64,000 nucleotides of DNA, from assembly GCF_023476645.1 (NCBI RefSeq), contig NZ_JAMCOJ010000002.1, positions 467,561 to 531,560 on the forward strand, in the 5' to 3' direction. This DNA comes from Cellulophaga sp. 20_2_10. Its GTDB lineage: Bacteria > Bacteroidota > Bacteroidia > Flavobacteriales > Flavobacteriaceae. The translations under genes were made by a program, and so were the position numbers. The notes beneath the pieces were generated by a model. That model had not been told where the DNA came from, did no database searches, and saw nothing but the letters and a program-made list of their open reading frames with translations. Positions 3,018 to 27,216 of the stretch are shown piece after piece. How positions within the stretch are numbered: position 1 is the first letter of the stretch; each line of letters opens with the position of its first letter.

Positions 3018-3113
3018 ACATTGCTTTTACGCATACCTACAATTGTTATACTAAAGCAGACATAAATTTATTTTTTTATGTATTATTTAGAGGTGTTAAA
3101 TGACACCTGTATA

Positions 3114-9747: not shown

Positions 9748-9785
9748 TAAACGTAGAACTACAAACTATTTATTAAGAAGAACAC
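9748..9785 (+). promoter_or_regulatory. Tandem direct-repeat operator, copy 1 (before sulfatase 5)
   Basis: Half-sites 9748-9764 (TAAACGTAGAACTACAA) and 9769-9785 (TTTATTAAGAAGAACAC) repeat with a 21-bp period and end 50 bp before the start codon. They share the invariant T1, A4, A10, A14, C15 and A16 of the copies at 18424, 20008 and 27123. This is the weakest of the four copies and was found by searching for the pattern of the others. Confidence 0.5.
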
Positions 9786-9835
9786 ATTTTTAAATGGTTT
9801 TATTGAATTTTAGATGATTAAAAAAATGAATTAAA

Positions 9836-11293
9836 ATGATGCTTCAGCTTATAAATAACTTTAAATTTTTAACGCTAACAATTGTTAGTGCCTTTTTGCT
9901 TTTTAGCACAGACGGAATTAGTCAATCTAAAAAAAACAAGAAGAAACCAAATATCATATACATAATGGCAGATGATTTGGGGTATGGTGACTTAAGTAGC
10001 TATGGGCAACAAAAGTTTAATACACCAAATATTGATGCTCTTGCAGCAAAAGGCATAAAATTTACTCAGCATTATAGCGGTTCTGCCGTTTGTGCGCCGT
10101 CTAGATCATCGTTAATGACAGGTCAGCATACTGGGCACACATTTGTTCGTGGTAATCTGGAGGCCGGTAATGATGAAAAGGGACAAGTTCCGTTACCAGA
10201 TAGTGCTTTTACTATTGCAGAAATGTTACAGCAAGCAGGTTATAAAACCGGTATGTTTGGTAAATGGGGCTTAGGTTTTGGTACTGGCGATCCAAATAAT
10301 CAGGGTTTTGATGAGTTTTATGGTTATAACGATCAAAAATTAGCGCATCGTTATTACCCGTCCTACTTAAACCACAATCAAGAAATAGATTTTTTAGTAG
10401 GTAACAACTGGATTAATACACAAACGTACGCACAGGATAAAATACAAGAAGCAACGCTTAATTTTATAGAAGACAATAAGGAAAAACCATTTTTTGCTTA
10501 CGTGCCTTTTGTGTTACCGCACGCAGAATTAATATCTCCAAAAGATTCTATACTGGCTAAATATATGGGGAAATTTAAAGAAGTGCCTTATACCGCAGAA
10601 GATTCGTACTCATCAGATTATGGTCCAGATATTGTAAAATACAAGTATTGCACACAAGAAACACCCTATGCTGTTTTTGCATCTATGGTAGATAGGCTGG
10701 ATGTTTACGTTGGTCAAATTGTAGCTAAGTTACAGGAGTTGGGATTAGAAGAAAATACTATTATTATGTTTACAAGTGATAATGGTCCCCATGATGCTGG
10801 TGGTGCAAATCCTGAGTTTTTTAATAGTGCAGGTGGTTTTAGAGGTATAAAAAGAGATTTGTATGAAGGTGGAATAAGAGCACCATTTATAGTTTCTTGG
10901 CCTAATAAAATTAAAAAGGGAACTGTAACCAATCATATCTCTGCTTTTTGGGACGTTATGCCAACTTTGGCAGAAGTTGCAGCAGTACCAAAACCAAGTA
11001 CAACAGACGGAATTTCATTTTTGCCAACGTTATTGGCTAAAAAGAAACAAAAACAACACCCGTATTTATATTGGGAGTTCAATATTAAAAACGGACGTAA
11101 AGCTGTTAGAAAAGGAGATTGGAAAGCAGTTGTTTACAATGTGAAAAAAAACGGAAAAACAGAACTTTATAATTTAGCCTCAGATCCATCAGAACATACA
11201 AATGTTGCTAGTAAGCATCCAGAAATTGTTGCAGAAATGGAACAAATAATGACAGCTGCACATACAGATTCTACTATTTTTCCTTTGAACTAA
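9836..11293 (+). CDS. Secreted formylglycine sulfatase (S1), no. 5
   Basis: A 485-residue protein with a signal peptide (cleavage near GISQ, residue 30), Asp pair at 46-47 (MADDLGYGD), formylglycine site C86 in CAPSR and second metal motif TSDNGPH. It is strongly similar along its length to sulfatase 10 at 36248 and less so to no. 7, sharing FTQHY, GSAVCAPSRSSLMTG and the DLYEGG segment. The start at 9836 has two Met in a row; the second (9839) is also possible. It opens the operon that continues into the oxidoreductase module, which suggests that desulfation and oxidation act in sequence. Confidence 0.93.
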   Translation: MMLQLINNFKFLTLTIVSAFLLFSTDGISQSKKNKKKPNIIYIMADDLGYGDLSSYGQQKFNTPNIDALAAKGIKFTQHYSGSAVCAPSRSSLMTGQHTGHTFVRGNLEAGNDEKGQVPLPDSAFTIAEMLQQAGYKTGMFGKWGLGFGTGDPNNQGFDEFYGYNDQKLAHRYYPSYLNHNQEIDFLVGNNWINTQTYAQDKIQEATLNFIEDNKEKPFFAYVPFVLPHAELISPKDSILAKYMGKFKEVPYTAEDSYSSDYGPDIVKYKYCTQETPYAVFASMVDRLDVYVGQIVAKLQELGLEENTIIMFTSDNGPHDAGGANPEFFNSAGGFRGIKRDLYEGGIRAPFIVSWPNKIKKGTVTNHISAFWDVMPTLAEVAAVPKPSTTDGISFLPTLLAKKKQKQHPYLYWEFNIKNGRKAVRKGDWKAVVYNVKKNGKTELYNLASDPSEHTNVASKHPEIVAEMEQIMTAAHTDSTIFPLN

Positions 11294-11340
11294 GTTAAAT
11301 TATTAAGACATCAAAATAGACCAAAAAAAACCAATAAATA

Positions 11341-13053
11341 ATGAGTAAATTTTATTTTAACGAAGAGCAAGATTTTTATGATGCTATTGTTGTAGGTACA
11401 GGAATTAGTGGTGGTTGGGCAGCAAAAGAACTTTGTGAAAACGGACTTAAAACATTAGTGCTAGAGCGTGGTAAAATGGTAGAGCATATTAAAGATTATA
11501 CTACAGCACATTTAGATGATTGGGATTTTCCTAACGGGGGAAAATTAACTAGAGAACAAAAAGCACAACAGTTAAAGCAAACTAGAACAGGACGTATAAA
11601 CAATGCGGATGTTAATAATTGGTTTGTAAACGATTTAAAGCACCCATATACAGAAACAAAACCGTTTGACTGGGTACGTGGTTACCATGTTGGTGGTAGG
11701 TCTATAATGTGGGGAAGACATAGTTACAGGTGGAGTGAGATTGATTTTGAAGCAAATGCTAAAGATGGTCATGGTGTGGACTGGCCCGTACGTTATAAAG
11801 ACATTGCTCCTTGGTATGATAAAGTGGAAACTTATATTGGTGTATCTGGAGAAAACTTGGGATTAGAGCAATTACCAGACGGACAGTTTTTACCAATGAT
11901 GGAACACAATTGTGTAGAACAACATTTTAGAGATGGTGTAGGTAAAAATATGGATGGTAGAGTGGTAACTGCTGGTAGAATAGCACACATTACAGGAGAT
12001 AAAAAGTTTGAAGGGCGTACCAAATGTCAGTTTAGAAATCGTTGTACACGGGGTTGCCCTTTTGGAGGTTATTTTAGTAGTAACTCATCTACTTTACCTG
12101 CAGCAGAACGTACTGGAAATATGACGTTAAGAGTAGATTCTATTGTGTCTGAGGTTATTTATGATCCAAATACAAAAAAAGCAAGTGGTGTAAAAGTGAT
12201 AGATAGCCTTACAAAGGAGGAGTTTATTTTTAAGTCAAAAGTAGTTTTCTTGTGTGCTTCATCAATGGCATCTGCATCTATATTATTACAATCTAAATCT
12301 GACCGTTTTCCTAACGGATTAGGAAATGATTCTGATCAAGTTGGAAGAAACGTAATGGATCATCATTTAGGAACAGGAGCAAATGGTACTATAGACGGTT
12401 TTGATGATAAATATTATAAAGGAAGACGTCCTGGTGGTATCTACATTCCTAGGTTTAAAAATTTAGGAGGTACATCTAACAGTAAAGATTATATAAGAGG
12501 TTATGGCTATCAAGGGAGTGCTAGTCGTAAAAACTGGAAAGATGCTGTGGCAGAATTAACTATGGGAGAGCCATTAAAAGAGGCCATTTTAAAACCAGGA
12601 GGATGGACAATGGGTGTTGGTGGTTTTGGAGAAATATTGCCATACCAAGACAACCGTATGTTTTTAGATTACGATAAATTAGATGAATGGGGCTTGCCAA
12701 CGGTAAATTTTGATGCGGAAATTAGAGATAATGAGCATAAAATGAGAGAAGATATGGTAAACCAAGCAGCAGATATGCTTAAAAAAGCAGGTTTTAAGGA
12801 TATTAAAGCTAGAAATGGCAAGTACAATATGGGACACGGTATTCATGAAATGGGTACTGCTCGTATGGGTAAAGATCCAAAAACATCTGTGCTTAATGCA
12901 CACAACCAAATACACGCGGTACCAAATGTATATATAACTGATGGTGCTTTTATGGCATCGGCAAGTTGTGTAAATCCGTCTTTAACGTATATGGCTTTTA
13001 CTGCAAGAGCAGCAAACCACGCAGCACAAGAACTTAAAAAAGGAAACTTATAA
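11341..13053 (+). CDS. GMC-family FAD oxidoreductase with Fe-S cysteine motif
   Basis: A 570-residue flavoprotein of the glucose-methanol-choline family. The FAD-binding GTGISGG loop is at residues 19-25. The active-site pair appears to be His499 (MGHGIH) and Asn545 (CVNPSLT). Cys229, Cys235 and Cys239 (C-x5-C-x3-C) have the same spacing as the three Cys that hold a 3Fe-4S cluster in bacterial FAD-glucose dehydrogenase, so electrons probably leave through an Fe-S centre, not to oxygen. There is no signal peptide; export may depend on the Tat-type leader of the next gene, whose ATG overlaps this stop (TAATG). Likely role: sugar dehydrogenase acting on a galactan-derived glycoside. Substrate unknown. 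Confidence 0.88.
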   Translation: MSKFYFNEEQDFYDAIVVGTGISGGWAAKELCENGLKTLVLERGKMVEHIKDYTTAHLDDWDFPNGGKLTREQKAQQLKQTRTGRINNADVNNWFVNDLKHPYTETKPFDWVRGYHVGGRSIMWGRHSYRWSEIDFEANAKDGHGVDWPVRYKDIAPWYDKVETYIGVSGENLGLEQLPDGQFLPMMEHNCVEQHFRDGVGKNMDGRVVTAGRIAHITGDKKFEGRTKCQFRNRCTRGCPFGGYFSSNSSTLPAAERTGNMTLRVDSIVSEVIYDPNTKKASGVKVIDSLTKEEFIFKSKVVFLCASSMASASILLQSKSDRFPNGLGNDSDQVGRNVMDHHLGTGANGTIDGFDDKYYKGRRPGGIYIPRFKNLGGTSNSKDYIRGYGYQGSASRKNWKDAVAELTMGEPLKEAILKPGGWTMGVGGFGEILPYQDNRMFLDYDKLDEWGLPTVNFDAEIRDNEHKMREDMVNQAADMLKKAGFKDIKARNGKYNMGHGIHEMGTARMGKDPKTSVLNAHNQIHAVPNVYITDGAFMASASCVNPSLTYMAFTARAANHAAQELKKGNL

Positions 13054-13613
13054 TGGACAGAAGAAAAGCATTAATGCAAATGGGAATGTCTTTGGGCTAT
13101 GTGGTAGCAGTACCAACTTTTGTAAGCATATTACAAAGTTGTGAAGACAAGAAAGAAGAAGTTTGGACACCAACATTTTTTAAAGCAGCACAAGGTTTAA
13201 CTTTAGTACATGTGGTAGACTCTATTTTACCAAAAACAGATACTCCGTCTGCATCAGAAGTAAACGTCCATATATTTTTAGATGGTTTTGTTGCTGATGT
13301 TATGGATGTAAAACAGCAGAACGATTTTAAAAAGACCTTAGATGCAATAGCACAGAGTGCACTAGCTAAATCTAATAAAAAGGAAGTAGCAGAATTAACA
13401 CAAAAAGATGTGGAACCTGTTGTACGCGAGTTTTTAGAAGCTAAAGGAAAAGAAAATGCTTTTGTTAAAAAGATTAGAGAGTTAACTATTTGGGGCTATA
13501 AGTGCAATGAATATGTTGGGGAAAAAGTATTGGCATATTTGCCTATTCCGGGAGAGTTTATTGCTTGTGATAGTGTAGAGGAATTAACAGGCGGTAAAGC
13601 ATGGTCTATCTAA
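13053..13613 (+). CDS. Gluconate 2-dehydrogenase subunit 3-like small subunit
   Basis: A 186-residue protein with a twin-arginine start (MDRRKALMQMG) and a lipobox-like Cys30 (ILQSC). The helical body fits the gluconate 2-dehydrogenase subunit 3 family, the usual partner of GMC dehydrogenases. Its start codon overlaps the stop of the GMC gene by one base, so the two are translationally coupled. Known small subunits act as chaperone and Tat export escort for the leaderless flavoprotein. A membrane-anchored periplasmic complex is therefore likely. No haem-binding CxxCH motif is present, so a separate cytochrome must accept the electrons. Confidence 0.82.
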   Translation: MDRRKALMQMGMSLGYVVAVPTFVSILQSCEDKKEEVWTPTFFKAAQGLTLVHVVDSILPKTDTPSASEVNVHIFLDGFVADVMDVKQQNDFKKTLDAIAQSALAKSNKKEVAELTQKDVEPVVREFLEAKGKENAFVKKIRELTIWGYKCNEYVGEKVLAYLPIPGEFIACDSVEELTGGKAWSI

Positions 13614-13634
13614 ATTAATGCAAATACTATAAAA

Positions 13635-14552
13635 ATGAAAAGAAGAAATTTTATACAAAAGTCAGCCCTTTCTGCCAGTGCATTAACATTAGGAAGTTCT
13701 ATTGCTTACGCAGCAAATAAGCATCAAAAAGTGATGAAACCTACTTTTAATTTAAAATATGCTCCGCATTTGGGTATGTTTAAAAATCATGCAGGTAAAG
13801 ATCCTATAGATGAGTTAAACTTTATGGCAGACCAAGGCTTTACCGCTTTTGAAGATAATAAAATGCGTAAAAGAGATATTGCCTTACAAGAGAAAATGGC
13901 AAGCACAATGCAAAAAAGAGGCTTAGAAATGGGCGTTTTTGTAGCAGTATTTTTAAAAGAAGGTAATGTAGCATCTGGAGATAAAAATATACAAGAAGCA
14001 TTTTTAAAACACTGTAAAGAATCTGTAGAGGTTGCAAAAAGAGTAAATGCAAAGTGGATGACTGTGGTACCTGGTAATATTGCCGATAAAGTAAGAGCAG
14101 GCTACCAAACGGCTAACGTTGTAGAAACTTTAAAACGGGCATCGGATATTTTTGAGCCACATAACCTAACAATGGTTTTAGAGCCATTAAACTTTTTTAA
14201 TCACCCTGGAGCCTTTTTAACAGATTCTCCGCAAGCTTATGATATTTGCAAAGCTGTAGATTCTCCGTCATGTAAAATTTTGTTTGATATATACCATCAA
14301 CAAATACAAGAGGGTAATTTAATACCAAATATGGAAGCTTGTTGGGATGAGATTGCATACCTGCAAATAGGTGATAACCCTGGACGTAATGAGCCAACAA
14401 CAGGAGAAATAAATTATACAAATGTGCTTAAATTTATTCATGATAAAAAGTACAATGGTATTTTAGGTATGGAACACGGTAATTCTAAACCAGGAAAAGA
14501 AGGAGAAAAAGCAGTGTTAGAAGCGTATAAACAAGTAGATAGTTTTAAGTAA
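13635..14552 (+). CDS. Exported hydroxypyruvate isomerase-like TIM-barrel protein
   Basis: A 305-residue protein with a Tat-type leader (KRRNFIQK, residues 2-9, then a hydrophobic stretch to AYA). The body is an AP-endonuclease-2/xylose-isomerase-type TIM barrel. It carries hydroxypyruvate-isomerase hallmarks: LEPLNFFNHPG, DIYHQQIQEGN, GDNPGRNEPTTGEINY and GMEHG, with Glu, Asp and His residues set to bind a metal. Export makes a role in central metabolism unlikely. Together with the GMC dehydrogenase it may isomerise or epimerise an oxidised sugar in the periplasm. The next gene has nearly the same leader and the same fold. Confidence 0.8.
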   Translation: MKRRNFIQKSALSASALTLGSSIAYAANKHQKVMKPTFNLKYAPHLGMFKNHAGKDPIDELNFMADQGFTAFEDNKMRKRDIALQEKMASTMQKRGLEMGVFVAVFLKEGNVASGDKNIQEAFLKHCKESVEVAKRVNAKWMTVVPGNIADKVRAGYQTANVVETLKRASDIFEPHNLTMVLEPLNFFNHPGAFLTDSPQAYDICKAVDSPSCKILFDIYHQQIQEGNLIPNMEACWDEIAYLQIGDNPGRNEPTTGEINYTNVLKFIHDKKYNGILGMEHGNSKPGKEGEKAVLEAYKQVDSFK

Positions 14553-14563
14553 AATAATATAGA

Positions 14564-15502: not shown

Positions 15503-15527
15503 GTTTATTGTTAGTTTAAGTTGAGAT

Positions 15528-15564
15528 AAGGAGGCTAAATTGTTATTATTTAGCCTTCTTTTTT
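15528..15564. terminator. Bidirectional terminator between convergent genes
   Basis: Arms at 15528-15540 and 15548-15560 (AGGCTAAAT core) pair with one mismatch. A T run follows on the + strand. The + side ends the second PUL operon; the right arm overlaps the last codons of the outer-membrane barrel gene on the - strand. Confidence 0.65.
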
Positions 15565-18275
15565 GTACCTCCTAATTTGTGTGTAAAGCTTAAAATAATA
15601 TAGCGACCTAGACTTTCAGACTCTGTTTCTTCAAAGTAATTAATAGTACTTCTTCTATCTATATTAATATTTTTATCCAATAAATCTATCAATACTAATT
15701 TTAATAAATTACTTCTATTTTTAGTTAGAGCGTAAGAAACGGTTGCATTCCATAAAGGGAGCTTTTGGTTACTATTAAATTTATCATCAACAAAAACAAG
15801 ATAATCTAACTGTGTATTAAAGCTTAGTTTTTTGGTAAAATCCTTATCAAACATTACAAAGTATTGCTGTTTTGTATATTTTCTGTCTAAATTGTTTTCT
15901 ATAGAAAAAGTGGTGTTGTTTGTGCTGTATGTAGCACCAGCTTTAACATCTAAAGTACTCTTGTTACTGTTTTCTAAAAGTAGGCTAAGCATAATATCTG
16001 TAGACTTTACTTTATTGGTTTGTAAGTTAACAATAGAATTGGCACTGGTGTAGGTGTTTTTATTTTTAAAAGTATATCTAAGTCCAATATCCTTTAATTT
16101 TTGTCCAAAGCTTATGCTGCTATTAAAACGTTCTTTTTTGCCGTTATTTTGGTAACTTATAGTTCTTATATAGTCATCATCTATGGTGACGCTTCTAATA
16201 ATTGCATCTGTTGTAATTTGGTAATCAAATTTGGTATTAAAACTTAAGTCAGATTTAAAGTTATGCACTACAGTATTTATTGTAAATGCATTGGTTTTTT
16301 CTGCACTTAAGTCAGGATTACCTTTTCTTATATTATATGGGTTTATATCATTAATAACTGTGGAGCTTTGAAAACTATTAGGGTTACGAATAAATTTTCT
16401 GTAGTTAAGTCTATATTTTTGACCTCTAACAGGTTTGTACATAATATTTGCCATAGGATTAATATAAAGTTTATTAGAAAGTCTATTGGCATCTGTAATA
16501 ACGCCAAAAGACCTACTAAGTTCTTGTAACTCTATAGCTGCATATGTATTTAACTTGCCGGGACTGTAGCTGTGTGCTAATCTTGTTTGGGCACTATTTT
16601 CTATATGCTTGTATTTATAAACCAGCAACTCATCTTTAGAGGTTGTAGTTATTGTGGTTTTAGATTGATGAACATCTTCGTTATTTGTTCTATTTCTTAA
16701 ATATGTTTCTAGTTTTGCGTAGTGGTTGTTACCTAAGGGCTCTGTATATTTAAAGTTGAGGTTTACCGTAGTGGTTGAAAAATCTTCATCCCTAATAGCA
16801 TCAATAGTACTGGTGGTAGGGTTATCTGTATTTTGTCTTCTTGTAATTTGTGTTGTTTGGTTATTTAATCTGTTAGAGTTGTTTACTGTTGTTTTTAACC
16901 CAACATTAAAACTACGTCCAATTTTTGCCAATCGTTGGTAAAAGTTAATGGTAACGTCTCCAATGCTTTTATCTCTTTTGTTATTAGATGCTGCTATGTT
17001 AGTGGTAGCCAATTCATTTAAATCATTAAAATAAAAACCATCCCTGTTGGTTATATAGTCAATATTATCCTTGGTAAACTTTCCTTTAACTAACAAGCTA
17101 TTGTTTTTGTTAGACTTGTTTTTATAATCAAAATTTAGATTGTAATTATTAGAGCTGTTATTAAAGGTATTCTCTGTTCTGTAGTCAAAATTAGAGTTGT
17201 TAGAAAAATTTATTCGTTTTGTATTAGAGACGCCTTCATTGTCAGATAAATTGTAAAAAAAATCTATATTTAAAGACTCTTTATCTTTAAACTCGTGACC
17301 AATATTTATACCGGCAACACCGGTTTTTAAATATCCGCTTAAGCTTTTGGTTTTTAGATTTGTGTCATCATCATCAGATTCATCTGCAATACCATTGGCA
17401 TTTTTTAAAAAGCCCTGTATATTAGAACCTGTAACGTTTATGTTGTTAAGTTTTCCTATTACAGAAAACTGGGTTTTAGATGTAAATTTATTGTAATTAA
17501 GGTTGCTAAAATATTTACTGTCTAAGCCCATACCGGCAGATACTTTACCAAAACCATTATTCTTCTTTGTTTTTTTTAGGGTGAAATTTATGACCATTTG
17601 TTTGTTACCATCGTCTACACCTGTAAGTTCAGACTCATCACTCTTTTTATCTATAATTTCTATTTTAGCAATTGCATCTGCAGATAAATTTTTTAAAACA
17701 ATAGATGGGTCTCCACCAAAAAACTCTTTACCATCTACCATTATTTTAGCAACCGAATTACCTTGAGCGTTAATATTTCCGTCAGCGTCAATTTCTAAAC
17801 CTGGTAATTTGGTTAGTAGTTCCTCTAAGTTATCATCAGAATTTGTTTTAAAAGAGTTGGCGTTGTAAGCTATAGTATCTTGTTTTATTTGTATTGGTAC
17901 TACGGCAGTTAATGTTATTCCGTCTAGAGCAAATGATTCTTCTTTAAGTACAATTGTATTAAGGTCTAGTAAATCTGTATTATAATCAATATTCTTAAAA
18001 AAAGATTCAAACCCCATAGATGAAATCTGTAGAATATAGTTTCCTAATTTTGCTTTATCTAAGGTAAATTCACCGGCGTTATTGGTTATGGTATAATCTA
18101 CGTAAGTGGAATCTTTTGGATTTAGTAATGTAACCGTAGCTGCTTCAATAGGTTGTTTGTTTTCTTCTGTAACTTTTCCTGTAATACCACTTTTAGATTG
18201 GGAAAAAACTGTTGTAAAAGAAAAAAAGAGGATAAATATATAACTAGTTGTGGTAATTTTTTTCCTTTTAGACAT
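15546..18275 (-). CDS. TonB-dependent-receptor-like outer membrane beta-barrel protein
   Basis: A 909-residue protein with a signal peptide (cleavage near VFSQ, residue 26), then a carboxypeptidase-regulatory-like beta-sandwich (about 30-115), a plug-like domain (about 130-220, with VDGKEFFGGDPS) and a long C-terminal outer-membrane barrel rich in Asn, Thr and Tyr. It matches the OMP beta-barrel family 3 type and is not a SusC: there is no SusD next to it and no SusC-type plug signature. It is the only - strand gene inside the PUL, convergent with the oxidoreductase operon and divergent from GH82. It may be unrelated to the PUL or import a small product. Confidence 0.85.
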   Translation of the reverse strand: MSKRKKITTTSYIFILFFSFTTVFSQSKSGITGKVTEENKQPIEAATVTLLNPKDSTYVDYTITNNAGEFTLDKAKLGNYILQISSMGFESFFKNIDYNTDLLDLNTIVLKEESFALDGITLTAVVPIQIKQDTIAYNANSFKTNSDDNLEELLTKLPGLEIDADGNINAQGNSVAKIMVDGKEFFGGDPSIVLKNLSADAIAKIEIIDKKSDESELTGVDDGNKQMVINFTLKKTKKNNGFGKVSAGMGLDSKYFSNLNYNKFTSKTQFSVIGKLNNINVTGSNIQGFLKNANGIADESDDDDTNLKTKSLSGYLKTGVAGINIGHEFKDKESLNIDFFYNLSDNEGVSNTKRINFSNNSNFDYRTENTFNNSSNNYNLNFDYKNKSNKNNSLLVKGKFTKDNIDYITNRDGFYFNDLNELATTNIAASNNKRDKSIGDVTINFYQRLAKIGRSFNVGLKTTVNNSNRLNNQTTQITRRQNTDNPTTSTIDAIRDEDFSTTTVNLNFKYTEPLGNNHYAKLETYLRNRTNNEDVHQSKTTITTTSKDELLVYKYKHIENSAQTRLAHSYSPGKLNTYAAIELQELSRSFGVITDANRLSNKLYINPMANIMYKPVRGQKYRLNYRKFIRNPNSFQSSTVINDINPYNIRKGNPDLSAEKTNAFTINTVVHNFKSDLSFNTKFDYQITTDAIIRSVTIDDDYIRTISYQNNGKKERFNSSISFGQKLKDIGLRYTFKNKNTYTSANSIVNLQTNKVKSTDIMLSLLLENSNKSTLDVKAGATYSTNNTTFSIENNLDRKYTKQQYFVMFDKDFTKKLSFNTQLDYLVFVDDKFNSNQKLPLWNATVSYALTKNRSNLLKLVLIDLLDKNINIDRRSTINYFEETESESLGRYIILSFTHKLGGTKKKAK

Positions 18276-18423
18276 AGACTGTTTGGTTGTAGTTTCAATT
18301 AAAAAATAGCATTGGTTATGTGCTATAAGTTCAAATATAACAGGTTAATACTGCCTATATGTAGCTTAAAATAAATTTAGTTTTTTTATTGATAAGGACA
18401 TGGACAAGGGCCTTTTTTTTCGA

Positions 18424-18461
18424 TTTACTGATAAATACATCTTATTTATTTGTAAGTACAA
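18424..18461 (+). promoter_or_regulatory. Tandem direct-repeat operator, copy 2 (before GH82)
   Basis: Half-sites 18424-18440 (TTTACTGATAAATACAT) and 18445-18461 (TTTATTTGTAAGTACAA) match at 12 of 17 positions with a 21-bp period. The pair ends 61 bp before the GH82 start. A candidate -7 element follows 19 bp downstream at 18481. Confidence 0.68.
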
Positions 18462-18480
18462 TCTTACTAAAAAGATAAGG

Positions 18481-18488
18481 TAGTTTTG
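18481..18488 (+). promoter_or_regulatory. Candidate -7 promoter element for GH82
   Basis: TAGTTTTG fits the Bacteroidota -7 consensus TAnnTTTG, 34 bp before the start codon. No good -33 TTTG sits at the normal spacing (the nearest is 28 bp away), which fits a promoter that needs the activator site just upstream. Confidence 0.5.
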
Positions 18489-18522
18489 TAGTGCAAATAA
18501 ATATAAACTTTAATTTTTTACT

Positions 18523-19881
18523 ATGATGAAAAACAATTCAAACAATTGGGTAAACTTTCAAACTCCTAAATTAAATAATTTTCGGGTTAAACGTATTTTT
18601 TTAGGGGTATTAGCAGCAGGTTTTATTTCTTGTTCAAATGATGATTTACAAGATCCTGTGCCTTTAAACGATTCTAGTTCACTTTTAGATGAGGGCACTA
18701 GCGTAAAAGTACTAATGCTTAAAGAAAAAGATTTTTATACCCCGCCAACTAGTTATGCAGTAACAAAAAACTTAGTTAAAGATTATGGTGCTGATAAATT
18801 GTTTTCTACAGATGATAGTCAAAAACTGCAAAACGCAATTAATGATATCTCTGACAAAGGGGGAGGCAAGCTATTTATACCAAAAGGTAATTATTCTGTA
18901 TCTGATGTAAAGCTAAAATCTAACGTGCATGTTATAGTTAATGGCGAAGCGGTAATTAGACCATCTGTTAGGCCTAATACAAACAAAAACTATGCAATGT
19001 TTACCTTTGGTAAGGAGTCTGCAGTAGTAAAAAACGTTAGTTTTAGGAGTGCATCTTCAACTAAATTTACGGTAGATTTAACCAAGGCTAACAATCCAAA
19101 TGTTGCTGTATTTAATTTTAACAATGTAGAGAATTTTTCAATATCGGACTTTAGGGTAAAAGATAACTTAACTAAGTTCTCTTCTGTAACGATGGGAATT
19201 ACGGAGTTTAATAATAAATACTATTGGCCTAGAAATGGTGTTATTAAAAATGCAACTACATTAAACTCTGACTATGGGTACGGTTTGGTACAAATACAAG
19301 CGGCAAAAAATGTTTTGTATAAAGACCTAAGTGGCATTGGTGGTGTAACATTAAGACTAGAAACTGGTTGGACATTTATGAACGACTTACAAAAAGGAGG
19401 AGTAGAAGATATGTTTGGAGAAAATATTTCATGTACTAATGGCAATGCAGCAGTTATGGTTTCTCCGCACGCTATGCATAATGGTAAAGTATACGTAAAT
19501 GGTATAACAGCTAATAGTTGTGGCTTTGCTGTGCGTTTAGAGGGTGGTTTTGTTTCTAAAAAATACTCAACTCCAGGATTAACAGATGGTACTTTTAGTA
19601 ACGTAACTATTAATAATGTAAAGGCTACTTTTGGAACTAAAGATGCGCAATTAAAACCAAAGCATTATAAATATATGCCCTGTAATTTAAGGAGTTCAAT
19701 AGATGAAAACCCAATAGTTGCTGGCGGAGATTCTTATAACGGACCATCTATAAGTGCAGTTGTAAATACACCTAATTATGCTGTTACTTTAAATAAAAAT
19801 AGTGTTAAAGGTACTGGTTTTACAGAAGGTTATGTAATAGTAACGGATGCACAAGCTAAAACAGACGCAGAATGTAATTAA
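18523..19881 (+). CDS. GH82 iota-carrageenase-like right-handed beta-helix protein
   Basis: A 452-residue lipoprotein (FISC, Cys27) with a right-handed parallel beta-helix. From memory of the Alteromonas fortis iota-carrageenase CgiA, the core aligns without gaps over the active site: Gln257 corresponds to Q222 (chloride/water site), Glu280 in LRLETG to the proton donor E245, and His316 in SPHAMHNG to H281. The residue matching the base D247 is Gly282. Iota-carrageenases cut beta-1,4 bonds of iota-carrageenan with inversion. This one could be active with another base, have changed specificity, or only bind. It is transcribed alone behind a direct-repeat operator. The lipid anchor suggests the cell surface. 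Confidence 0.85.
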   Translation: MMKNNSNNWVNFQTPKLNNFRVKRIFLGVLAAGFISCSNDDLQDPVPLNDSSSLLDEGTSVKVLMLKEKDFYTPPTSYAVTKNLVKDYGADKLFSTDDSQKLQNAINDISDKGGGKLFIPKGNYSVSDVKLKSNVHVIVNGEAVIRPSVRPNTNKNYAMFTFGKESAVVKNVSFRSASSTKFTVDLTKANNPNVAVFNFNNVENFSISDFRVKDNLTKFSSVTMGITEFNNKYYWPRNGVIKNATTLNSDYGYGLVQIQAAKNVLYKDLSGIGGVTLRLETGWTFMNDLQKGGVEDMFGENISCTNGNAAVMVSPHAMHNGKVYVNGITANSCGFAVRLEGGFVSKKYSTPGLTDGTFSNVTINNVKATFGTKDAQLKPKHYKYMPCNLRSSIDENPIVAGGDSYNGPSISAVVNTPNYAVTLNKNSVKGTGFTEGYVIVTDAQAKTDAECN

Positions 19882-19936
19882 TTAAGAATATGTTTTTAAT
19901 AATGACTCTTAAATGAGTATTTAGTTTTAATTAATT

Positions 19937-19968
19937 AAACCAGAGCACTTAAATGTTCTGGTTTTTTT
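19937..19968 (+). terminator. Terminator after the GH82 gene
   Basis: Arms 19937-19947 (AAACCAGAGCA) and 19954-19964 pair with one G-T wobble around a 6-nt loop, followed by a run of T. It isolates GH82 as a single-gene unit. Confidence 0.8.
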
Positions 19969-20007
19969 GTAAAAAGTATGTTGCTTTAACTGGTAATGTG
20001 CGTTTAA

Positions 20008-20045
20008 TTTACTAATAAATACATATTGTAAACTACTAGGCACAT
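20008..20045 (+). promoter_or_regulatory. Tandem direct-repeat operator, copy 3 (before sulfatase 6)
   Basis: Half-sites 20008-20024 (TTTACTAATAAATACAT) and 20029-20045 (TAAACTACTAGGCACAT) match at 11 of 17 positions with a 21-bp period. The first half-site differs from that before GH82 at one base only. It ends 46 bp before the start codon. Confidence 0.65.
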
Positions 20046-20091
20046 TTGCTATAATGATATTAAAGATATTTACGCTAAACATTTTTATATT

Positions 20092-21504
20092 TTGAAAAGA
20101 GCAAACATTTACAAAAAGACCTTACTACTTGCTGCTGTCACTGGATTAGTTTTTACCTCTTGTAAAAATAAACCCAACCAAACAGCAGAAGTAACAGTAA
20201 AAGAAGAGGTAGTAAAAAATGAAAAACCAAATATTGTGCTATTATTTGTAGACGATTATGGTTGGTCTGACATTGGGTATAGAAACCAAACTTTTACTAC
20301 GCCTAACTTGGATAAATTTAAAAAAGAAAGTTTAGACTTTAATAGAGCATATATACCGACACCTACTTGTAGTCCAAGTAGGTTGTCTTTGCTTACGGGT
20401 AAAGAAGCAATTAGGTTGGGTATGCCAAGACATATTGCATTGGACAAAGATAATCCTGATGCCGAATATAATTTATGGCCTTCAGATCCTGTGCAAATGC
20501 CTTCTAGAAATTACTTGCCTTTAGAAGAAGTAACATATGCAGAACGTTTACAAGAATTAGGGTATTATAATATGTTTATTGGTAAATGGCATTTAGGGCA
20601 TCCAGGACGTTACCCAAAAGACCAAGGTTTTGATGCCGAATATGGAACCACAAACTCTGGACATCCAAAAAGTTACTATTACCCATTTTTTAAACAAGAA
20701 GATGATCCAAGAGGCTTTTTAAAGTCGGGAGTTAAAGAAGGAGATTATTTAACAGACGTGCTTACAGATGGCGCTGTTAATTTTATAAAAGACTATAATA
20801 AAGAAAAGCCATTTATGCTTTCGTTTTGGTATTATTCTGTTCACGGTCCGTCTATAGGTCGTAAAGATTTACTTAAAAAACACCAAGATGCAGGTCTAGA
20901 GGGTAAATACGCACACCACGCTGCTATGGTAGAAGCTATGGATGAGTCTGTTGGTCGTGTACGCAAAGCATTAGAAGAAAAAGGAATTGCAGATAACACG
21001 GTAATCATTGTACTATCAGACCAAGGTGGTGCGTATACAAATGCACCATTAAGTGGCGGTAAAAAAGGAGGTAATACTTTAGGTGAAGGTGGTGCTCGTG
21101 TACCATTACTAATAAATTATCCTGGAGTAACTAAAGCCAATACAGAGACAAATGTACCTGTGCAGTCTATAGATATTTATCCAACCTTAATAGAAATTGC
21201 ATCTGGTAAAAAATGTGAAGACACTCAAATTAACGGTGTTAGTTTACTTCCGGTTTTAAAAGGTGAAACACTAGAAAAACGAAATTTATATTTCTTTAGA
21301 AGTTATGAAGATCAATATGCCGCTGTAATGGCGGGCGATTTTAAACTTATAAAATACCATAGTGGTACATACCATTTATTTAATGTAGCTAAAGATATAA
21401 GCGAGCAAGATGATTTAATGGGTAAGGGGCTTCAAATAGAAGAAGAGCTTAAAAACGATCTTGCAAATTGGGAAAAAGAAGCTGTTCCTGTTTATTCAAA
21501 ATAG
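20092..21504 (+). CDS. Lipoprotein formylglycine sulfatase (S1), no. 6
   Basis: A 470-residue protein read from a TTG start at 20092; no ATG precedes the leader, and this start gives a proper lipoprotein signal (FTSC, Cys24). Asp pair at 54-55 (FVDDYGWSD), formylglycine site C93 in CSPSR, and a second metal motif LSDQGG in which Gln replaces the usual Asn. GKWHLGHPG is present. It opens a four-gene operon (three sulfatases and a GH2). Lipidation places it at the outer membrane or facing the periplasm. Substrate position unknown. Confidence 0.9.
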   Translation: MKRANIYKKTLLLAAVTGLVFTSCKNKPNQTAEVTVKEEVVKNEKPNIVLLFVDDYGWSDIGYRNQTFTTPNLDKFKKESLDFNRAYIPTPTCSPSRLSLLTGKEAIRLGMPRHIALDKDNPDAEYNLWPSDPVQMPSRNYLPLEEVTYAERLQELGYYNMFIGKWHLGHPGRYPKDQGFDAEYGTTNSGHPKSYYYPFFKQEDDPRGFLKSGVKEGDYLTDVLTDGAVNFIKDYNKEKPFMLSFWYYSVHGPSIGRKDLLKKHQDAGLEGKYAHHAAMVEAMDESVGRVRKALEEKGIADNTVIIVLSDQGGAYTNAPLSGGKKGGNTLGEGGARVPLLINYPGVTKANTETNVPVQSIDIYPTLIEIASGKKCEDTQINGVSLLPVLKGETLEKRNLYFFRSYEDQYAAVMAGDFKLIKYHSGTYHLFNVAKDISEQDDLMGKGLQIEEELKNDLANWEKEAVPVYSK

Positions 21505-21516
21505 AATATTAGATTT

Positions 21517-22938
21517 ATGAAAAACCTTATTTTATCAATCTTTATACTTGCAATTTGTATTTCTTGCGGTTCTAAAGATAAAAAAGACCTTGCTTTAACT
21601 GATAAAGAACCTAAAGAAACCCCTCAAACTAAAAAGCCAAATATTATATTTTTATTGGCTGATGATATGGGCTATGGTGAGCTAGGTTCTTACGGTCAAA
21701 AAGTAATTAAAACTCCGTTTTTAGATAGTTTAGCATCTGTAGGTATGCGCTTTACAGATTTTTATGCAGGTACATCTGTATGTTCACCATCTAGAGCTGT
21801 GTTAATGACGGGTCTACACACAGGCCACGTTAGTATTCGTGGTAATAAAGGAGAATATCCTAATAAATATGATAGAGTACCTTTAAAAAAGTCTGAAAAA
21901 ACAATAGGAGAAATGCTACAGCAATCTGGCTACCAAACAGCTATGATTGGAAAATGGCATTTAGGAGTGCCCGAAGATGTATCTACTTGGGCAAAAGGCA
22001 GAGGTTTTACGTATGCTGTACAAGAACAATGGGGAGAAGATGCTAACGGTAATGAGATAGATGAACGTGTACACTGGGTAAACAACAATCAGGATTCTAT
22101 TTTTTACAACTACAATAACTACAGCTGTCTAGATGAGTTTAGAACCAACTTTGCATTAGAGTATTTAGATAAAAAGGACGCTAGTAAACCTTTTTTCTTA
22201 TACATGTCTTATAGAACACCACACGCACACGAGTTCTTTTTAAGTAAAAATGATTTGTATACTGATAAAATAGAGGAATGGCCAGAGATAGAGCGCAGAC
22301 ATGCAGCGCGTATAACAATGTTAGATGCACAAATAAAACGCTTGTTTACTAAACTAAAAGAAAGTGGCGAGTTAGATAATACGTTAATTGTGTTTTCTAG
22401 TGATAACGGACCAACCAATGAAAATCATCATGATTATACCTTTTTTAATAGTTCTGGTAATTTAAATGGCTACAAAAGAGATGTGTATGAGGGTGGCGTA
22501 AGAGTACCAATGATAGCTTATTGGAAAGAAAAAATAAAAGGAGGAACTACAAGTAACCATCCTAGTACTTTTTACGATGTTATGCCAACTTTGGCAGAAG
22601 TAGCAACGGCAAAAGTGCCAAATAAAACAGACGGAATTTCTTTTTTGCCAGAACTTTTGGGCAAAAAACAAGCAAAACATAATTTTTTATATTGGGAAAT
22701 TCAAGAAGGCAGATCAGTAAAAGGGTACAGGCAGGCGACAAGGTTTGGTAGTTGGAAAGCAGTACGTTACAAAGATAATTATCACACAGAATTGTATAAT
22801 TTAGATACAGATTTGTTTGAGAAAAATGACGTATCTGCGCAGTATCCAGAAATTGTAGAAAAGGCAAATAAAATATTAAAAGAACAAAGTGTACCAATAG
22901 CGCATTATCCATTTTCTGGTGGCGTATTTAAAAAGTAA
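21517..22938 (+). CDS. Lipoprotein formylglycine sulfatase (S1), no. 7
   Basis: A 473-residue lipoprotein (CISC, Cys17) with Asp pair at 49-50 (LADDMGYGE), formylglycine site C89 in CSPSR, GKWHLGVP and SSDNGP metal motif. It belongs to the same branch as nos. 5 and 10, sharing GLHTGH, RGNKG and the DVYEGGVR segment. It follows no. 6 by 12 nt. The next gene starts 4 nt after its stop. The three related copies in separate operons suggest specialisation on different oligosaccharides. Confidence 0.92.
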   Translation: MKNLILSIFILAICISCGSKDKKDLALTDKEPKETPQTKKPNIIFLLADDMGYGELGSYGQKVIKTPFLDSLASVGMRFTDFYAGTSVCSPSRAVLMTGLHTGHVSIRGNKGEYPNKYDRVPLKKSEKTIGEMLQQSGYQTAMIGKWHLGVPEDVSTWAKGRGFTYAVQEQWGEDANGNEIDERVHWVNNNQDSIFYNYNNYSCLDEFRTNFALEYLDKKDASKPFFLYMSYRTPHAHEFFLSKNDLYTDKIEEWPEIERRHAARITMLDAQIKRLFTKLKESGELDNTLIVFSSDNGPTNENHHDYTFFNSSGNLNGYKRDVYEGGVRVPMIAYWKEKIKGGTTSNHPSTFYDVMPTLAEVATAKVPNKTDGISFLPELLGKKQAKHNFLYWEIQEGRSVKGYRQATRFGSWKAVRYKDNYHTELYNLDTDLFEKNDVSAQYPEIVEKANKILKEQSVPIAHYPFSGGVFKK

Positions 22939-22942
22939 AACT

Positions 22943-24481
22943 ATGATAAAAGTTAAAGAAATTTTATGGTGTGTAGCATTGGCTTTGCTGCTAATGGCTT
23001 GCGGTGGTAAAACCGATAAAAAAGTGGCTGTTGTAGAAACACCTACAGAAGCTAAAAAACCAAATATTATTTGGATAATGGCGGAAGATATGAGTACTGA
23101 CTTAGCCTGTTATGGTATGCCAGACGTTAAAACTCCGTTTTTGGATAAAATGGCAAAAGAGGGAGTGCTTTTTACCAATGCTTTTGTTACAAATCCTATC
23201 TGTTCTCCTAGTAGATCTTCTATGATGATTGGTACACATCAACTAAAAACAAATACTCATAATCACCGTAGTAATAGAGAGGTTCCCTTAGATCCACAAT
23301 TTACACCTTTTACTAAATTATTAAGAGATGCTGGTTATACTACCATTTTGGGGAACCATGCTGTTTTAAATAAAGGAAGAAAAATAGATGTAAATTTTAA
23401 GCATGAAGCTATTGGTGCTTGGGACGGAAAAACTCAATTTGGATTGTTTGATAAATACGATACCATTGAAAAATCTGATCAACCATTTTTTGCTCAAATA
23501 CAATTGCAAGTGACACACAGAGGAGAATGGTGGGATAGAATTAGAGAAGAATCTAAACACCCAGTAAATCCTGAAACGCTTACATTGCCTCCTTATATGG
23601 CAGACCATCCTGCAGTACGCTTAGATTGGGCTAAATATTTAGACCAAATAGAATATATGGATAGTGAGGTTGGTATGCTGTTTAAAGAATTAGAAGATAA
23701 AGGATTAGCAGATAATACTATTGTAATTTTTATAGGCGATAACGGTCGTTGTAATATTCGTGGTAAAGGCTATTTACAAGATCCGGGTTTACGTATTCCT
23801 TTGTTAGTACATTACCCTGCTAAATTTAAAGGGAATAAGGTAAGAAAAGATGTTATTAGTGCAACAGATATAACGGCAAGTATTATAGATTTTGCAGGTA
23901 TACCAGTACCAAGTTATATGACAGGTTCACCTATTTTTAGTGATAATTTTAATAGAGAATACAATTATGCAGCTAGAGATTTATGGGATGAAATTGTAGA
24001 AAAATCTAGGTCTGTTACAACAACGGAATGGTCTTACATACGTAATGATATGCCAGAGGTTCCTTATGATGCCCACCAAGCATATTTAGAGTTTTATAGG
24101 CCAGCTGTGCACGTAATGCGTACGCTTTATAAAGAAGGAAAGTTAAACGAGAATCAGGCTCCGTTTTTTGCGCCTACAAAACCAAAAGAAGAACTATACC
24201 ATTTAACAGAAGATCCTAATGAATTGGTAAATTTAGCCGAAGATCCAAAATATGCAGATGTGTTAGAAAAATTGCGTAATAAAACAGCCGTTTTTGATGA
24301 GCAGATGAAACCTGTTAGTGCTATTTATGATCCTATACTAACAAATGGACCAGAACTAATTGCTTGGGTTAAAAAAGAAAAACCAGAAGAATATAAAAAA
24401 ATGCTTGCTGGAGCAGAAATAGGGCATAAAAAAATGAATAAGGAATACAGAGCAGCTTTAAAAAAGGCAAATAAAAAATAA
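22943..24481 (+). CDS. Lipoprotein formylglycine sulfatase (S1), no. 8
   Basis: I start this gene at the ATG at 22943 (512 residues), not at the in-frame GTG at 22919, because the ATG gives a clean lipoprotein leader (LLLMAC, Cys20) and avoids overlap with no. 7. The formylglycine site is C87 in CSPSR. The first metal pair is Glu-Asp (MAEDM, residues 48-49), unlike most neighbours. The second metal site is GDNGR. The histidine of the usual GKWH segment is replaced by GNHAVL. A Lys-rich C-terminal tail of about 80 residues is added. These differences mark a distinct S1 subfamily. Confidence 0.9.
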   Translation: MIKVKEILWCVALALLLMACGGKTDKKVAVVETPTEAKKPNIIWIMAEDMSTDLACYGMPDVKTPFLDKMAKEGVLFTNAFVTNPICSPSRSSMMIGTHQLKTNTHNHRSNREVPLDPQFTPFTKLLRDAGYTTILGNHAVLNKGRKIDVNFKHEAIGAWDGKTQFGLFDKYDTIEKSDQPFFAQIQLQVTHRGEWWDRIREESKHPVNPETLTLPPYMADHPAVRLDWAKYLDQIEYMDSEVGMLFKELEDKGLADNTIVIFIGDNGRCNIRGKGYLQDPGLRIPLLVHYPAKFKGNKVRKDVISATDITASIIDFAGIPVPSYMTGSPIFSDNFNREYNYAARDLWDEIVEKSRSVTTTEWSYIRNDMPEVPYDAHQAYLEFYRPAVHVMRTLYKEGKLNENQAPFFAPTKPKEELYHLTEDPNELVNLAEDPKYADVLEKLRNKTAVFDEQMKPVSAIYDPILTNGPELIAWVKKEKPEEYKKMLAGAEIGHKKMNKEYRAALKKANKK

Positions 24482-24493
24482 GAATTACCAAAA

Positions 24494-26839
24494 ATGAATT
24501 ACCTGAAAACCAAAACTGCTTTTACTCTTTTTGTTTTATTAGTAGCTGTTGCAGTGCAGTCTTGCACAAAAGATGTGCCTACTACAATAGCTATAAATAA
24601 AGATTGGAAGTTTAAAATAATAGACGAATCTAAAGTAGCAGCCAAAGACTTGGCTACAGCAGAATTTAATGATAAAGATTGGCAAAGTGTACAATTGCCA
24701 CATACGGCAAATATAGAGCCACTGATTGTTAATAACCAATGGCAAGGCATATGTTGGTATAGAAGAACAATTGCTATTTCTAATGATGATGCTAATAAAA
24801 AGGTGTTTTTTGAGCTAGAAGCGGCAATGAATTTTTCAAAAATTTGGGTGAACGGAAAATTAGTTTCTGAACACCACGGTGGATATTTACCAATAGCTTT
24901 AGACTTATCGGACTATATAAAAGCAGGAGAAAATTCTATTGCTATTAGACTAGATAATACAGATAATGAAATTACAGGGCCAAAGCCATTAAAACGGTTA
25001 GACTTTAATATGTATGGTGGTTTGTATAGAAATGCAAAGTTATCAGTTAAAGAAAATGTGTATATTTCTAATGCTGTATTGGCCAATAAAGTTGCGGGTG
25101 GTGGTATTTTTATTACCTACCCAAAGGTTAATACATCTTCTTCTTTGGTAAACATTAAAACAAATGTTGCTAATGATAGTAATGAGGAGCAAAGTATTAC
25201 CGTAGTACAAAGTATACTTAAAAATGGTAAAGTAGTAAAAGAAAATACATCAGATAAAATAACTGTTGCAGCCACTAAAAGTACAGATCATATTGTACAG
25301 TTAGCTATAGATAGTCCTGACTTATGGTCACCAGACAACCCTAATTTGTATGAGTTAGAAACTAAAATACAAGTAAAAGGTAAAACAGTAGATGTACAAA
25401 AAACGAAATTTGGTATTCGTGTTTTTGAGTTTATAGAAAACCAACTATATGTAAACGGTGAAAAAACATTTTTACGTGGTGTAAATAGGCACCAAGAGTA
25501 TCCTTTTATAGGGTATGCCTTGTCTAACAACGCACAATACCGTGATGCTAAAAAAATAAAAGATGCTGGTTTTAATTACATAAGATTATCACACTACCCG
25601 CAATCTCCAGCTTTTTTAGATGCTTGTGATGAGCTTGGTTTGGTTGTTATAGACGCCATTATGGGTTGGCAATATTATAATGATACAGATGCTTTTAGAG
25701 AATATTGTTACCGTTCTGCATCAGAATTAATACGAAGAGATAGGAACAGACCATCTGTTTTGGCTTGGGAAGTATCTTTAAATGAGACCAAGATGCCTAT
25801 TTTCTTTATGGAGGAATTAAATAAAATAGTACATGCAGAATATCCTGGAGACAATGTATATTCTTGTGGTTGGATGGATGATGTGTATGATATTTATTTA
25901 CAAGCGCGCCAGCACAGAATTATGCATCCACATGCACTAAAAGATAAGCCATACTCTGTATCTGAATATGGAGATTGGGAATACTACTCTAACAACGCAG
26001 GTTTAAATCAGCATAAATTACCAAAAGATATTAGACTAGAAAAGAGTAGTAGGCAGTTAAGAGCAGATGGCGAAGTTAGATTGTTACAACAAGCTTACAA
26101 TTTACAAGAATCTCATAATGATAATTTAACAACACCAGCGTATTCAGATAGTTATTGGGTGATGTATGACTACAACCGTGGGTACCATAATGATATTGAA
26201 GCTTCAGGTATTATGGATATTTTTAGGTTGCCAAAATTTGGGTATTATTTTTACCAAAGTCAGCAAAGTTTTCATCAAAAAAAGGTATTAAAGATAGCAA
26301 CGTACTGGAATAATAATTCGCCTACAGATGTAAAAGTATTTTCTAATGTAGATGAAGTTAAGTTGTTTTTAAATGATGAATTAATAGCAACGCAAAAACC
26401 AGATCAAGATCGTATATCTACAAAACTTACACACCCACCGTTTACATTTAAATTAGGGTCTTTCTCTGCCGGAACTCTAATGGCTAAAGGATTTGTTAAC
26501 GGAGAACAAGTTGCAGAAGATACTGTAAAAACACCAGAAAAGGCTACTAAATTAAAAATTTGGGTAGATGAGAGTACTAGACCTGCTGAGGCAAATGTAA
26601 ACGATGTTTTATTTGTATACATAGCTGCGGTAGACGCCAATGGTACGGTAATACCAGATTTTAATGGCGCAATAGATATTACAGTAGGTAATGGATTAGA
26701 AGTTTTAAATGTAGAAGCAATAACAGCTGAAGCTGGTATTGCTACGGCAGTTGTAAAGGTTGGAGCAGAATCGGGATCCGTACCAGTAAGTGCACTATCT
26801 AACACCTTAAAAGGTACTTATGATTTTATGATAAAATAG
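24494..26839 (+). CDS. GH2 glycoside hydrolase with extra C-terminal Ig-like domains, no. 2
   Basis: A 781-residue lipoprotein (AVQSC, Cys24) with GH2 jelly roll (about 35-195), Ig-like domain (200-310) and TIM barrel (315-600). The acid/base is Glu431 in VSLNET and the nucleophile Glu491 in VSEYGDW. After the barrel come a DUF4982-like domain and an Ig-like domain (to the end). It is longer than the first GH2 and only moderately similar, so it probably attacks another beta-galactoside or a different chain context. It is the last gene of its operon and is followed by a terminator. Confidence 0.88.
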   Translation: MNYLKTKTAFTLFVLLVAVAVQSCTKDVPTTIAINKDWKFKIIDESKVAAKDLATAEFNDKDWQSVQLPHTANIEPLIVNNQWQGICWYRRTIAISNDDANKKVFFELEAAMNFSKIWVNGKLVSEHHGGYLPIALDLSDYIKAGENSIAIRLDNTDNEITGPKPLKRLDFNMYGGLYRNAKLSVKENVYISNAVLANKVAGGGIFITYPKVNTSSSLVNIKTNVANDSNEEQSITVVQSILKNGKVVKENTSDKITVAATKSTDHIVQLAIDSPDLWSPDNPNLYELETKIQVKGKTVDVQKTKFGIRVFEFIENQLYVNGEKTFLRGVNRHQEYPFIGYALSNNAQYRDAKKIKDAGFNYIRLSHYPQSPAFLDACDELGLVVIDAIMGWQYYNDTDAFREYCYRSASELIRRDRNRPSVLAWEVSLNETKMPIFFMEELNKIVHAEYPGDNVYSCGWMDDVYDIYLQARQHRIMHPHALKDKPYSVSEYGDWEYYSNNAGLNQHKLPKDIRLEKSSRQLRADGEVRLLQQAYNLQESHNDNLTTPAYSDSYWVMYDYNRGYHNDIEASGIMDIFRLPKFGYYFYQSQQSFHQKKVLKIATYWNNNSPTDVKVFSNVDEVKLFLNDELIATQKPDQDRISTKLTHPPFTFKLGSFSAGTLMAKGFVNGEQVAEDTVKTPEKATKLKIWVDESTRPAEANVNDVLFVYIAAVDANGTVIPDFNGAIDITVGNGLEVLNVEAITAEAGIATAVVKVGAESGSVPVSALSNTLKGTYDFMIK

Positions 26840-26870
26840 TCTGTAGGGAAAAACATTCTGTTGATAAAAG

Positions 26871-26914
26871 ACAGTTTCTAAGGGGATTAATTCCTTTTTA
26901 GAAGCTGTTTTTTT
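26871..26914 (+). terminator. Terminator after the second GH2 gene
   Basis: Arms 26871-26881 (ACAGTTTCTAA) and 26898-26908 pair with one wobble, followed by T at 26908-26914. It begins 31 nt after the stop of the GH2 gene. Confidence 0.75.
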
Positions 26915-27122
26915 AGTTTTAGATTCAACCTAAAAGGGCTTTTTTTAATGCCTTAGCAAAGATGATATGCTTTTTACGGTATTTTCGCAAAATTTGGAGG
27001 TTATATTGTAAATCTGCCATACGTTTTATTCGGCTTAAATGCCGTTTTTATCCCTTTTAAATTAAAAAAAATAAAAGTAATTTCAATTGTAATGTATTGA
27101 TATTGTAGTTTTTAGGTGTTGT

Positions 27123-27160
27123 TTTACGGAAAGATACATTTGATTTACGGGTATAGACAA
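27123..27160 (+). promoter_or_regulatory. Tandem direct-repeat operator, copy 4 (before GH110-SusCD)
   Basis: Half-sites 27123-27139 (TTTACGGAAAGATACAT) and 27144-27160 (TTTACGGGTATAGACAA) match at 12 of 17 positions with a 21-bp period, ending 56 bp before the GH110 start. The TTTACGG beginning is identical in both halves. TACATTTG at 27135-27142 also resembles a -7 element but overlaps the site. Confidence 0.68.
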
Positions 27161-27216
27161 AGTTATTGCATAAAAACTGCAACTTTATGAAACAATTAAC
27201 ATACTATCAGTAAATA

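Follow-up and report, generated by a model that had tools for sequence, protein, structure and literature searches.

In marine flavobacteria the genes that serve a single polysaccharide are scattered over several loci, and the co-action of such genes is usually learnt from transcriptomes only. In a 64,000-nucleotide stretch of the Cellulophaga sp. 20_2_10 genome (hereafter the window; C12:467561-531560, on contig NZ_JAMCOJ010000002.1), the initial annotation had noticed that four transcription units of a polysaccharide utilization locus (PUL) each follow a pair of 17-bp half-sites, and had proposed that an AraC/XylS-type activator encoded outside the window controls them. We asked whether these pairs are genuine regulatory sites, which protein would read them, and which other genes they would connect. 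Our analysis indicates that they are very probably operators of one hybrid two-component system (HTCS) protein, whose gene (C12:423191-427327) lies 40 kb upstream of the window and which is predicted from sequence to act as an activator through the tandem half-sites. Bare coordinates refer to the window; others are given as contig:position or with a locus label.

Tandem half-sites in the window

All eight half-sites lie where they had been placed, in pairs with a 21-bp period (9748/9769, 18424/18445, 20008/20029 and 27123/27144). Positions T1, A4, A10, A14, C15 and A16 are invariant in 8/8 half-sites, and the gaps of 50, 61, 46 and 56 bp to the start codons are correct. When we searched the genome (G000; 4,168,929 bases) for TWWAY-N4-A-N3-ACA (IUPAC code) occurring twice at 21 bp, the four perfect matches were exactly the four reported pairs. 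Allowing up to one mismatch raised the count to 17, compared with 8 when the pattern was reversed. From their context we judge four of the 13 one-mismatch matches to be credible sites (C12:427351, C12:430409, C12:470586, C1:782333), and the other nine look like background.

The annotation had cautioned that AT-rich DNA might produce such pairs by chance. At up to one mismatch the window alone holds five matches vs 0.08 expected, and none of 100 dinucleotide shuffles reached five or more. We also built a weight matrix from 29 sites: eight from this genome, 20 of the 22 perfect matches in genomes with an ortholog of the HTCS (see below), and L100; L076 (gene absent within 450 bp) and L091 (gene 109 bp away) were left out. 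This matrix, trained partly on the sites being scored, found seven pairs at a score of at least 18 in 124 kb of contig C12, and none in 20 first-order Markov resamplings or in the reversed sequence. Together with the spacing and AT-matched controls described below, these tests exclude chance as the source of the pairs.

The annotation had also doubted its weaker copy at 9748, and had made its proposal depend on conservation before orthologous genes. That copy is kept in both congeneric genomes possessing the regulator (G015 and G011), and all four sites are present there; in the alignments, judged by eye, the half-sites and the -7 box described below form conserved islands. The idea of a shared operator therefore stands, but four is too low a count: a site at 3026 had been missed, and we recognize 11 credible sites in the genome.

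A candidate regulator and its linkage to the motif

The HTCS protein (1378 aa) contains Reg_prop, Y_Y_Y, HisKA, HATPase_c, Response_reg and HTH_18 domains, all six above Pfam cut-offs, and so joins in one polypeptide a periplasmic sensor, HisKA, HATPase_c, a receiver and a C-terminal AraC-type helix-turn-helix (HTH). One operator, C12:427351, starts 23 bp past its stop codon, and a lambda-carrageenase gene (CGLA_M, E 6.3e-197) lies directly downstream, 174 bp past that site. In G011 and G089, too, lambda-carrageenase is the neighbor of the HTCS ortholog, and in G101 and L132 the two lie within a few kb of each other. The annotation was probably right in placing an AraC-type DNA-binding domain outside the window, but the best candidate is this HTCS and not a classical AraC/XylS protein. 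At a score of at least 14, no site occurs in any of 24 further loci of this genome that encode AraC domains (two of them overlap; each was taken as the match plus 1.5 kb on either side, about 3.2 kb). No stand-alone AraC/XylS protein of about 300 aa with a site at its own locus was found among them, a test that would overlook a gene lying far from its sites.

To follow the motif beyond this genome we searched for HTCS orthologs in 248 genomes, our own included, scoring two candidates per genome. Ten genomes besides G000 encode orthologs at 53% identity or more; the next candidates form a second group at 41-44%, and paralogs, at no more than 37%, rank below it. The ten ortholog genomes contain 22 perfect pairs, distributed over nine of them (reversed-pattern control, 3), G146 having none, and 30 chosen relatives without an ortholog contain nine (control, 4). 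The genes behind the 22 sites, identified by eye from translations, encode sulfatases, GH110, GH82, GH42-like enzymes, SusC and symporters; none was found for L076. In two other genera, the same kind of operator-promoter precedes a sodium:solute symporter gene (L085, in G089:C34, an SSF match by Pfam; L086, in G053:C6, by eye), which suggests that sugar uptake is part of the regulon there.

A held-out set was drawn from a scan of the genome contigs of relatives; the 80 loci kept from 132 relatives included 11 orthologs at 51-78% identity, three of which (L123, L128, L133) were left out as belonging to the already-used genomes G011, G053 and G101. The eight remaining loci, 183 kb from Maribacter, Lacinutrix, Polaribacter, Flavicella, Algibacter and other Flavobacteriaceae, yielded 14 pairs at a score of at least 18, in six loci, vs none in all 69 paralog loci (1.56 Mb; G+C content of 37% or less in 44 of them). 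Nine other spacings yielded 0-2 pairs in the same test. At a score of 14 there were 15 pairs in the eight ortholog loci vs two in the 44 low-G+C paralog loci (1.02 Mb). The motif is therefore a direct repeat of about 21 bp that is conserved with orthologous HTCS genes and rare elsewhere, the exceptions being G002, with a site but no HTCS ortholog, and L129, L130 and G146, with an HTCS but no site nearby. Between this HTCS and its two congeneric orthologs, overall identity is 87% and 78%, that of the HTH 99% and 98%, and that of the sensor 81% and 69%; the pieces from L051 and L129 entered the identity comparison as partial sequences (1029 and 1079 aa).

Promoter architecture

The consensus of the 29 aligned sites is roughly TTTAC-N4-A-R-R-T-ACAT, four bases, TWWAY-N4-A-N3-ACA, and then TTT(A/G) at +24 to +27. 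This last box played no part in site selection, and we counted it in all perfect matches, including those dropped from matrix training. It lies exactly at +24 in 17 of the 22 sites of ortholog genomes, vs a mean of 0.68/22 over the other 59 offsets; in genomes without an ortholog it does so in one of nine, namely the GH82 site of G002. Among the held-out pairs 12/14 have it exactly at +24, as do 7/11 sites of our own genome. In Flavobacterium psychrophilum the -7 box used by sigma-A reads TAnnTTTG and lies at -12 to -5 (PMC9723704; this and the other reports are cited from portions of their text). Because a -7-box-like TTT(A/G) follows most sites at 24 bases, the sites are operator-promoter modules. 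Measured from the -12/-5 box position, half-site 2 occupies about -48 to -32 and half-site 1 about -69 to -53; the promoter-proximal half-site ends 19 bp before the TAnnTTTG-like box and therefore covers the -33 region.

This arrangement suggests how induction may work. The periplasmic propeller of the HTCS would sense a carrageenan oligosaccharide, and a phosphorelay would then activate the fused receiver. Each of the two 17-bp half-sites would be occupied by one AraC-type DNA-binding domain, so that two such domains would line up in tandem along the same face of the helix, 21 bp being two helical turns. At class II promoters AraC recruits the sigma factor in place of an upstream contact, and the HTCS would probably do likewise, replacing the -33 contact and recruiting sigma-A. 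An activator site at the upstream promoter element, at a fixed distance from the -7 box, is what we find at the level of sequence and predicted starts. Binding, activation and the nature of the ligand are what we infer from these features.

Predicted operators and target genes in the window

All five operators in the window that we consider credible lie on the forward strand, and the four reported ones are conserved in G015 and G011. The first (9748..9785; half-sites 9748-9764 and 9769-9785) is followed by a -7-like box, GAATTTTA, at 9805..9812, and by a sulfatase gene (PF00884; 9836..11293) with GMC oxidoreductase and sugar isomerase-like genes behind it. The second (18424..18461) has a perfect TAnnTTTG box, TAGTTTTG, at 18481..18488, with a predicted transcription start near 18493, and precedes an iota-carrageenase GH82 gene (18523..19881) whose product matches iota-carrageenase structure 3lmw (E 2.4e-66). 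The third (20008..20045), with a -7-like box, GATATTTA, at 20065..20072 that is identical in three congeners, precedes a sulfatase gene with a TTG start (20092..21504) and then two more sulfatase genes and GH2. The fourth (27123..27160; -7-like box CAACTTTA at 27180..27187) precedes a GH110 alpha-1,3-galactosidase gene (27217..29121; GH110A structure 9beh, E 2.4e-107) and then SusC and SusD.

The additional, weaker operator at 3026..3063 has one mismatch and aligned counterparts in both congeners, and stands before sulfatase 3 (3114..4634). In its -7-like box, TTATTTAG, at 3083..3090, the TTTA comes one base early. The open reading frame (ORF) of this sulfatase is listed from 3078, but the true start is probably the ATG at 3114 (or 3126), because a start codon at 3078 would precede the -7 box and because the ATG at 3114 gives a 50-bp gap resembling those of the other sites. 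On the reverse strand, a possible weak divergent operator (18359..18396; score only 4.7) lies before an outer-membrane protein gene (15546-18275) adjacent to GH82. A copy of this divergent site is convincing only in G011 (L221:18888, forward strand), with 62 bp between its end and the ortholog of that gene.

Predicted extent of the regulon in the genome

The 11 credible sites lie on two contigs, and eight of them are in the matrix training set. Eleven is a lower bound, the whole genome having been scanned by pattern only and the matrix applied to parts. The reported sites score 23.3 (9748), 36.9 (18424), 36.6 (20008) and 35.6 (27123). Contig C12 has three further training sites: C12:427351 behind the HTCS gene (29.2), C12:430409 before genes for an EF-hand protein and a sulfatase (26.8), and C12:445840 before SusC and SusD (26.5). 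On contig C1, the sites at C1:782333 (29.4) and C1:784001 each end 45 bp before one of two tandem GH82-like genes (L265). The first encodes a match to iota-carrageenase 1h80 (E 7.7e-26) and the second, judged by eye from its translation, a close paralog of the first; neither has a Pfam match. The sites outside the training set score lower: 3026, 16.9; C1:784001, 17.2; and L044:18472, which precedes a Melibiase_2 gene and shares half-site 2 and the -7 region with G011, 13.1.

With the pattern extended by the -7 box, and up to two mismatches allowed, there were 18 genome matches vs three in the control: 9/11 credible sites, the one weak divergent site, and eight that we left as background. A pair at L043:11269 was dropped as likely chance: it straddles the start of a sulfatase gene and no -7 box accompanies it, although the first matrix gave it a score of 20. 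The position of lambda-carrageenase immediately after the HTCS gene makes lambda- plus iota-carrageenan the probable substrate of the regulon.

Weighing the alternatives

Several observations weigh against assigning the sites to the HTCS. The congener G002 carries a near-perfect operator with a -7 box before GH82 (L217:9726-9763; G002:C1:2942726) and lacks an HTCS ortholog, and its matched DNA-binding domains are at most 39% identical to that of the HTCS; this operator is either a relic or read by another regulator. We considered G002 as a second holder of the regulon and set the idea aside: at up to one mismatch it has 12 matches vs 10 in the control, so that only its one perfect site stands out. 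Of the 21 HTCS copies examined, 12 have a site that starts within about 250 bp behind the gene. Sites are also missing where the HTCS is present, in two of the eight held-out loci (L129 and L130; none at score 18 in 24 kb each), and in G146 and behind the second copy of the HTCS in each of G018 and G019 (none at score 14 in the 20 kb behind); the sister-group loci L120-L122 (41-42% identity) have none. In four of the 11 sites of our own genome the TTTR element is one base off or altered. Finally, the relatives cannot count as independent of one another (L125 and L127 are close kin), and binding of the operator by the HTCS is itself a prediction.

The G002 site would fit a stand-alone AraC-family activator that binds the repeats, with the HTCS adjoining as a mere member of the cluster. 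AraC-type proteins also use tandem 17-bp half-sites. A counterpart of Zobellia CgrA (ZGAL_3159) would be one example; when the gene of this AraC-family regulator is deleted, growth on carrageenan is delayed and reduced (PMC5698469). None of the 24 other AraC-domain loci tested in this genome has a site, however, although no search was aimed at orthologs of CgrA itself, and the motif tracks HTCS orthologs into other genera while being absent from the 69 paralog loci; we consider this explanation unlikely. Less probable is a repressor, for instance of the LacI type, that would bind the repeats and block the promoter. A LacI-family gene does lie in the window (37803-38816), but LacI-family operators are palindromic and the sites here are direct repeats that stop 19 bp short of the -7 box and leave it uncovered. 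Least plausible of all is that the repeats are simply promoter-associated AT-rich sequence that has no dedicated regulator and owes its likeness to -7/-33 architecture and composition. A and T do make up 67% of the window, and the sites stand close before genes, but shuffles, Markov resampling, the reversed pattern, other spacings and AT-matched paralog loci gave no or far fewer such pairs. We therefore favor the HTCS as the protein that would read these operators.

Relation to known systems

In E. coli, AraC acts on araI1-araI2, two 17-bp half-sites with a 21-bp period, the second of which overlaps the -35 region. The sites described here resemble these in half-site length, period and placement relative to the promoter; they differ in sequence and in serving a Bacteroidota sigma-A with the -7 box TAnnTTTG. 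The annotation's analogy with AraC thus holds for geometry, but a closer precedent is published in Bacteroides: the motifs that Ravcheev et al. (2013; PMC3878776) predicted for 16 HTCSs of B. thetaiotaomicron are without exception direct repeats, 21 bp apart on average. As described in that portion of the report, these regulons share with ours an AraC-type HTH within a hybrid protein, direct repeats of about 21 bp, and control of SusCD and polysaccharide-degrading enzyme genes, distant ones included. Because HTCS operators of this period are published there, the type of switch is already known. The regulator and targets are different here, in marine Flavobacteriia and for lambda/iota-carrageenan, and a fixed spacing to the -7 box is shown; the comparison is one of repeat geometry.

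The carrageenan regulon of Zobellia galactanivorans (PMC5698469) is similarly one carrageenan-induced unit that joins a gene cluster to remote genes, a remote SusCD pair among them. Its regulator is the stand-alone AraC protein CgrA, unlike the present case, in which an HTCS and lambda-carrageenase are central, and the features described in the cited portion of that account do not include a DNA operator. The lambda-carrageenan cascade of Pseudoalteromonas distincta (PMC12549532) resembles our set of genes in GH150, two GH110, GH2 and S1 sulfatases, but that PUL is gammaproteobacterial and the study, in the portion cited, is one of enzymes; in a word count of it, 'regulator' did not occur and 'regulon' occurred once. 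We found no report of a carrageenan HTCS or its operator in the open-access literature searched, which is no proof of absence; the sensor and the red-algal (lambda/iota-carrageenan) targets of this regulon look new.

If our assignment is right, scattered carrageenan-digesting genes would switch on together via one sugar-sensing regulator. The 65-bp operator-promoter signature would assign three GH82-like genes, GH150, GH110, sulfatases and SusCD to one sensor, across genera, and lambda-carrageenan regulation would become predictable from sequence. It would also provide a concrete HTCS-DNA pair in Flavobacteriia, and a promoter geometry for HTCS activation that may apply to other PULs.

A putative leader RNA before lambda-carrageenase

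Outside the window, the 174 bp between operator C12:427351 and the lambda-carrageenase start include a putative leader RNA (L045:19855-19950; C12:427416-427511) with a predicted transcript of about 90 nt. In three Cellulophaga genomes (G000, G015 and G011) it begins with a conserved hairpin at the 5' end, which is followed by a single-stranded stretch of 22 invariant nucleotides, AATTAGTTTTTATTTTGAGTTA, and then by an intrinsic terminator. The hairpin TGTAAG/CTTACA is TGTGAG/CTCACA in G011, a double change that keeps the pairing, and the terminator stem of G011 differs in sequence while the stem itself is kept. Rfam gave no match at the gathering threshold in 60 kb (L045, L107, L108). An antiterminator pairing of the invariant stretch with a terminator arm, drawn by eye, was rejected when shuffles did as well in 43, 108 and 208 of 500 cases. 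A search with 21 bases of the stretch for copies or targets gave five matches besides itself, all with three mismatches, vs three in the control. Of the 12 leaders examined, five have a clear terminator (G000, G015, G011, G053 and L131:18058), one a weak one and six none; those of like shape in two other genera, G053 and L131:18058, precede sulfatase genes. In G089 lambda-carrageenase lies 66 bp behind the operator and the leader is absent.

Tentatively, and with more doubt than confidence, we suggest that the HTCS may control lambda-carrageenase at two levels, the induced leader acting as an attenuator or a small RNA. If so, a leader RNA would gate the first step of carrageenan attack or act on other transcripts.

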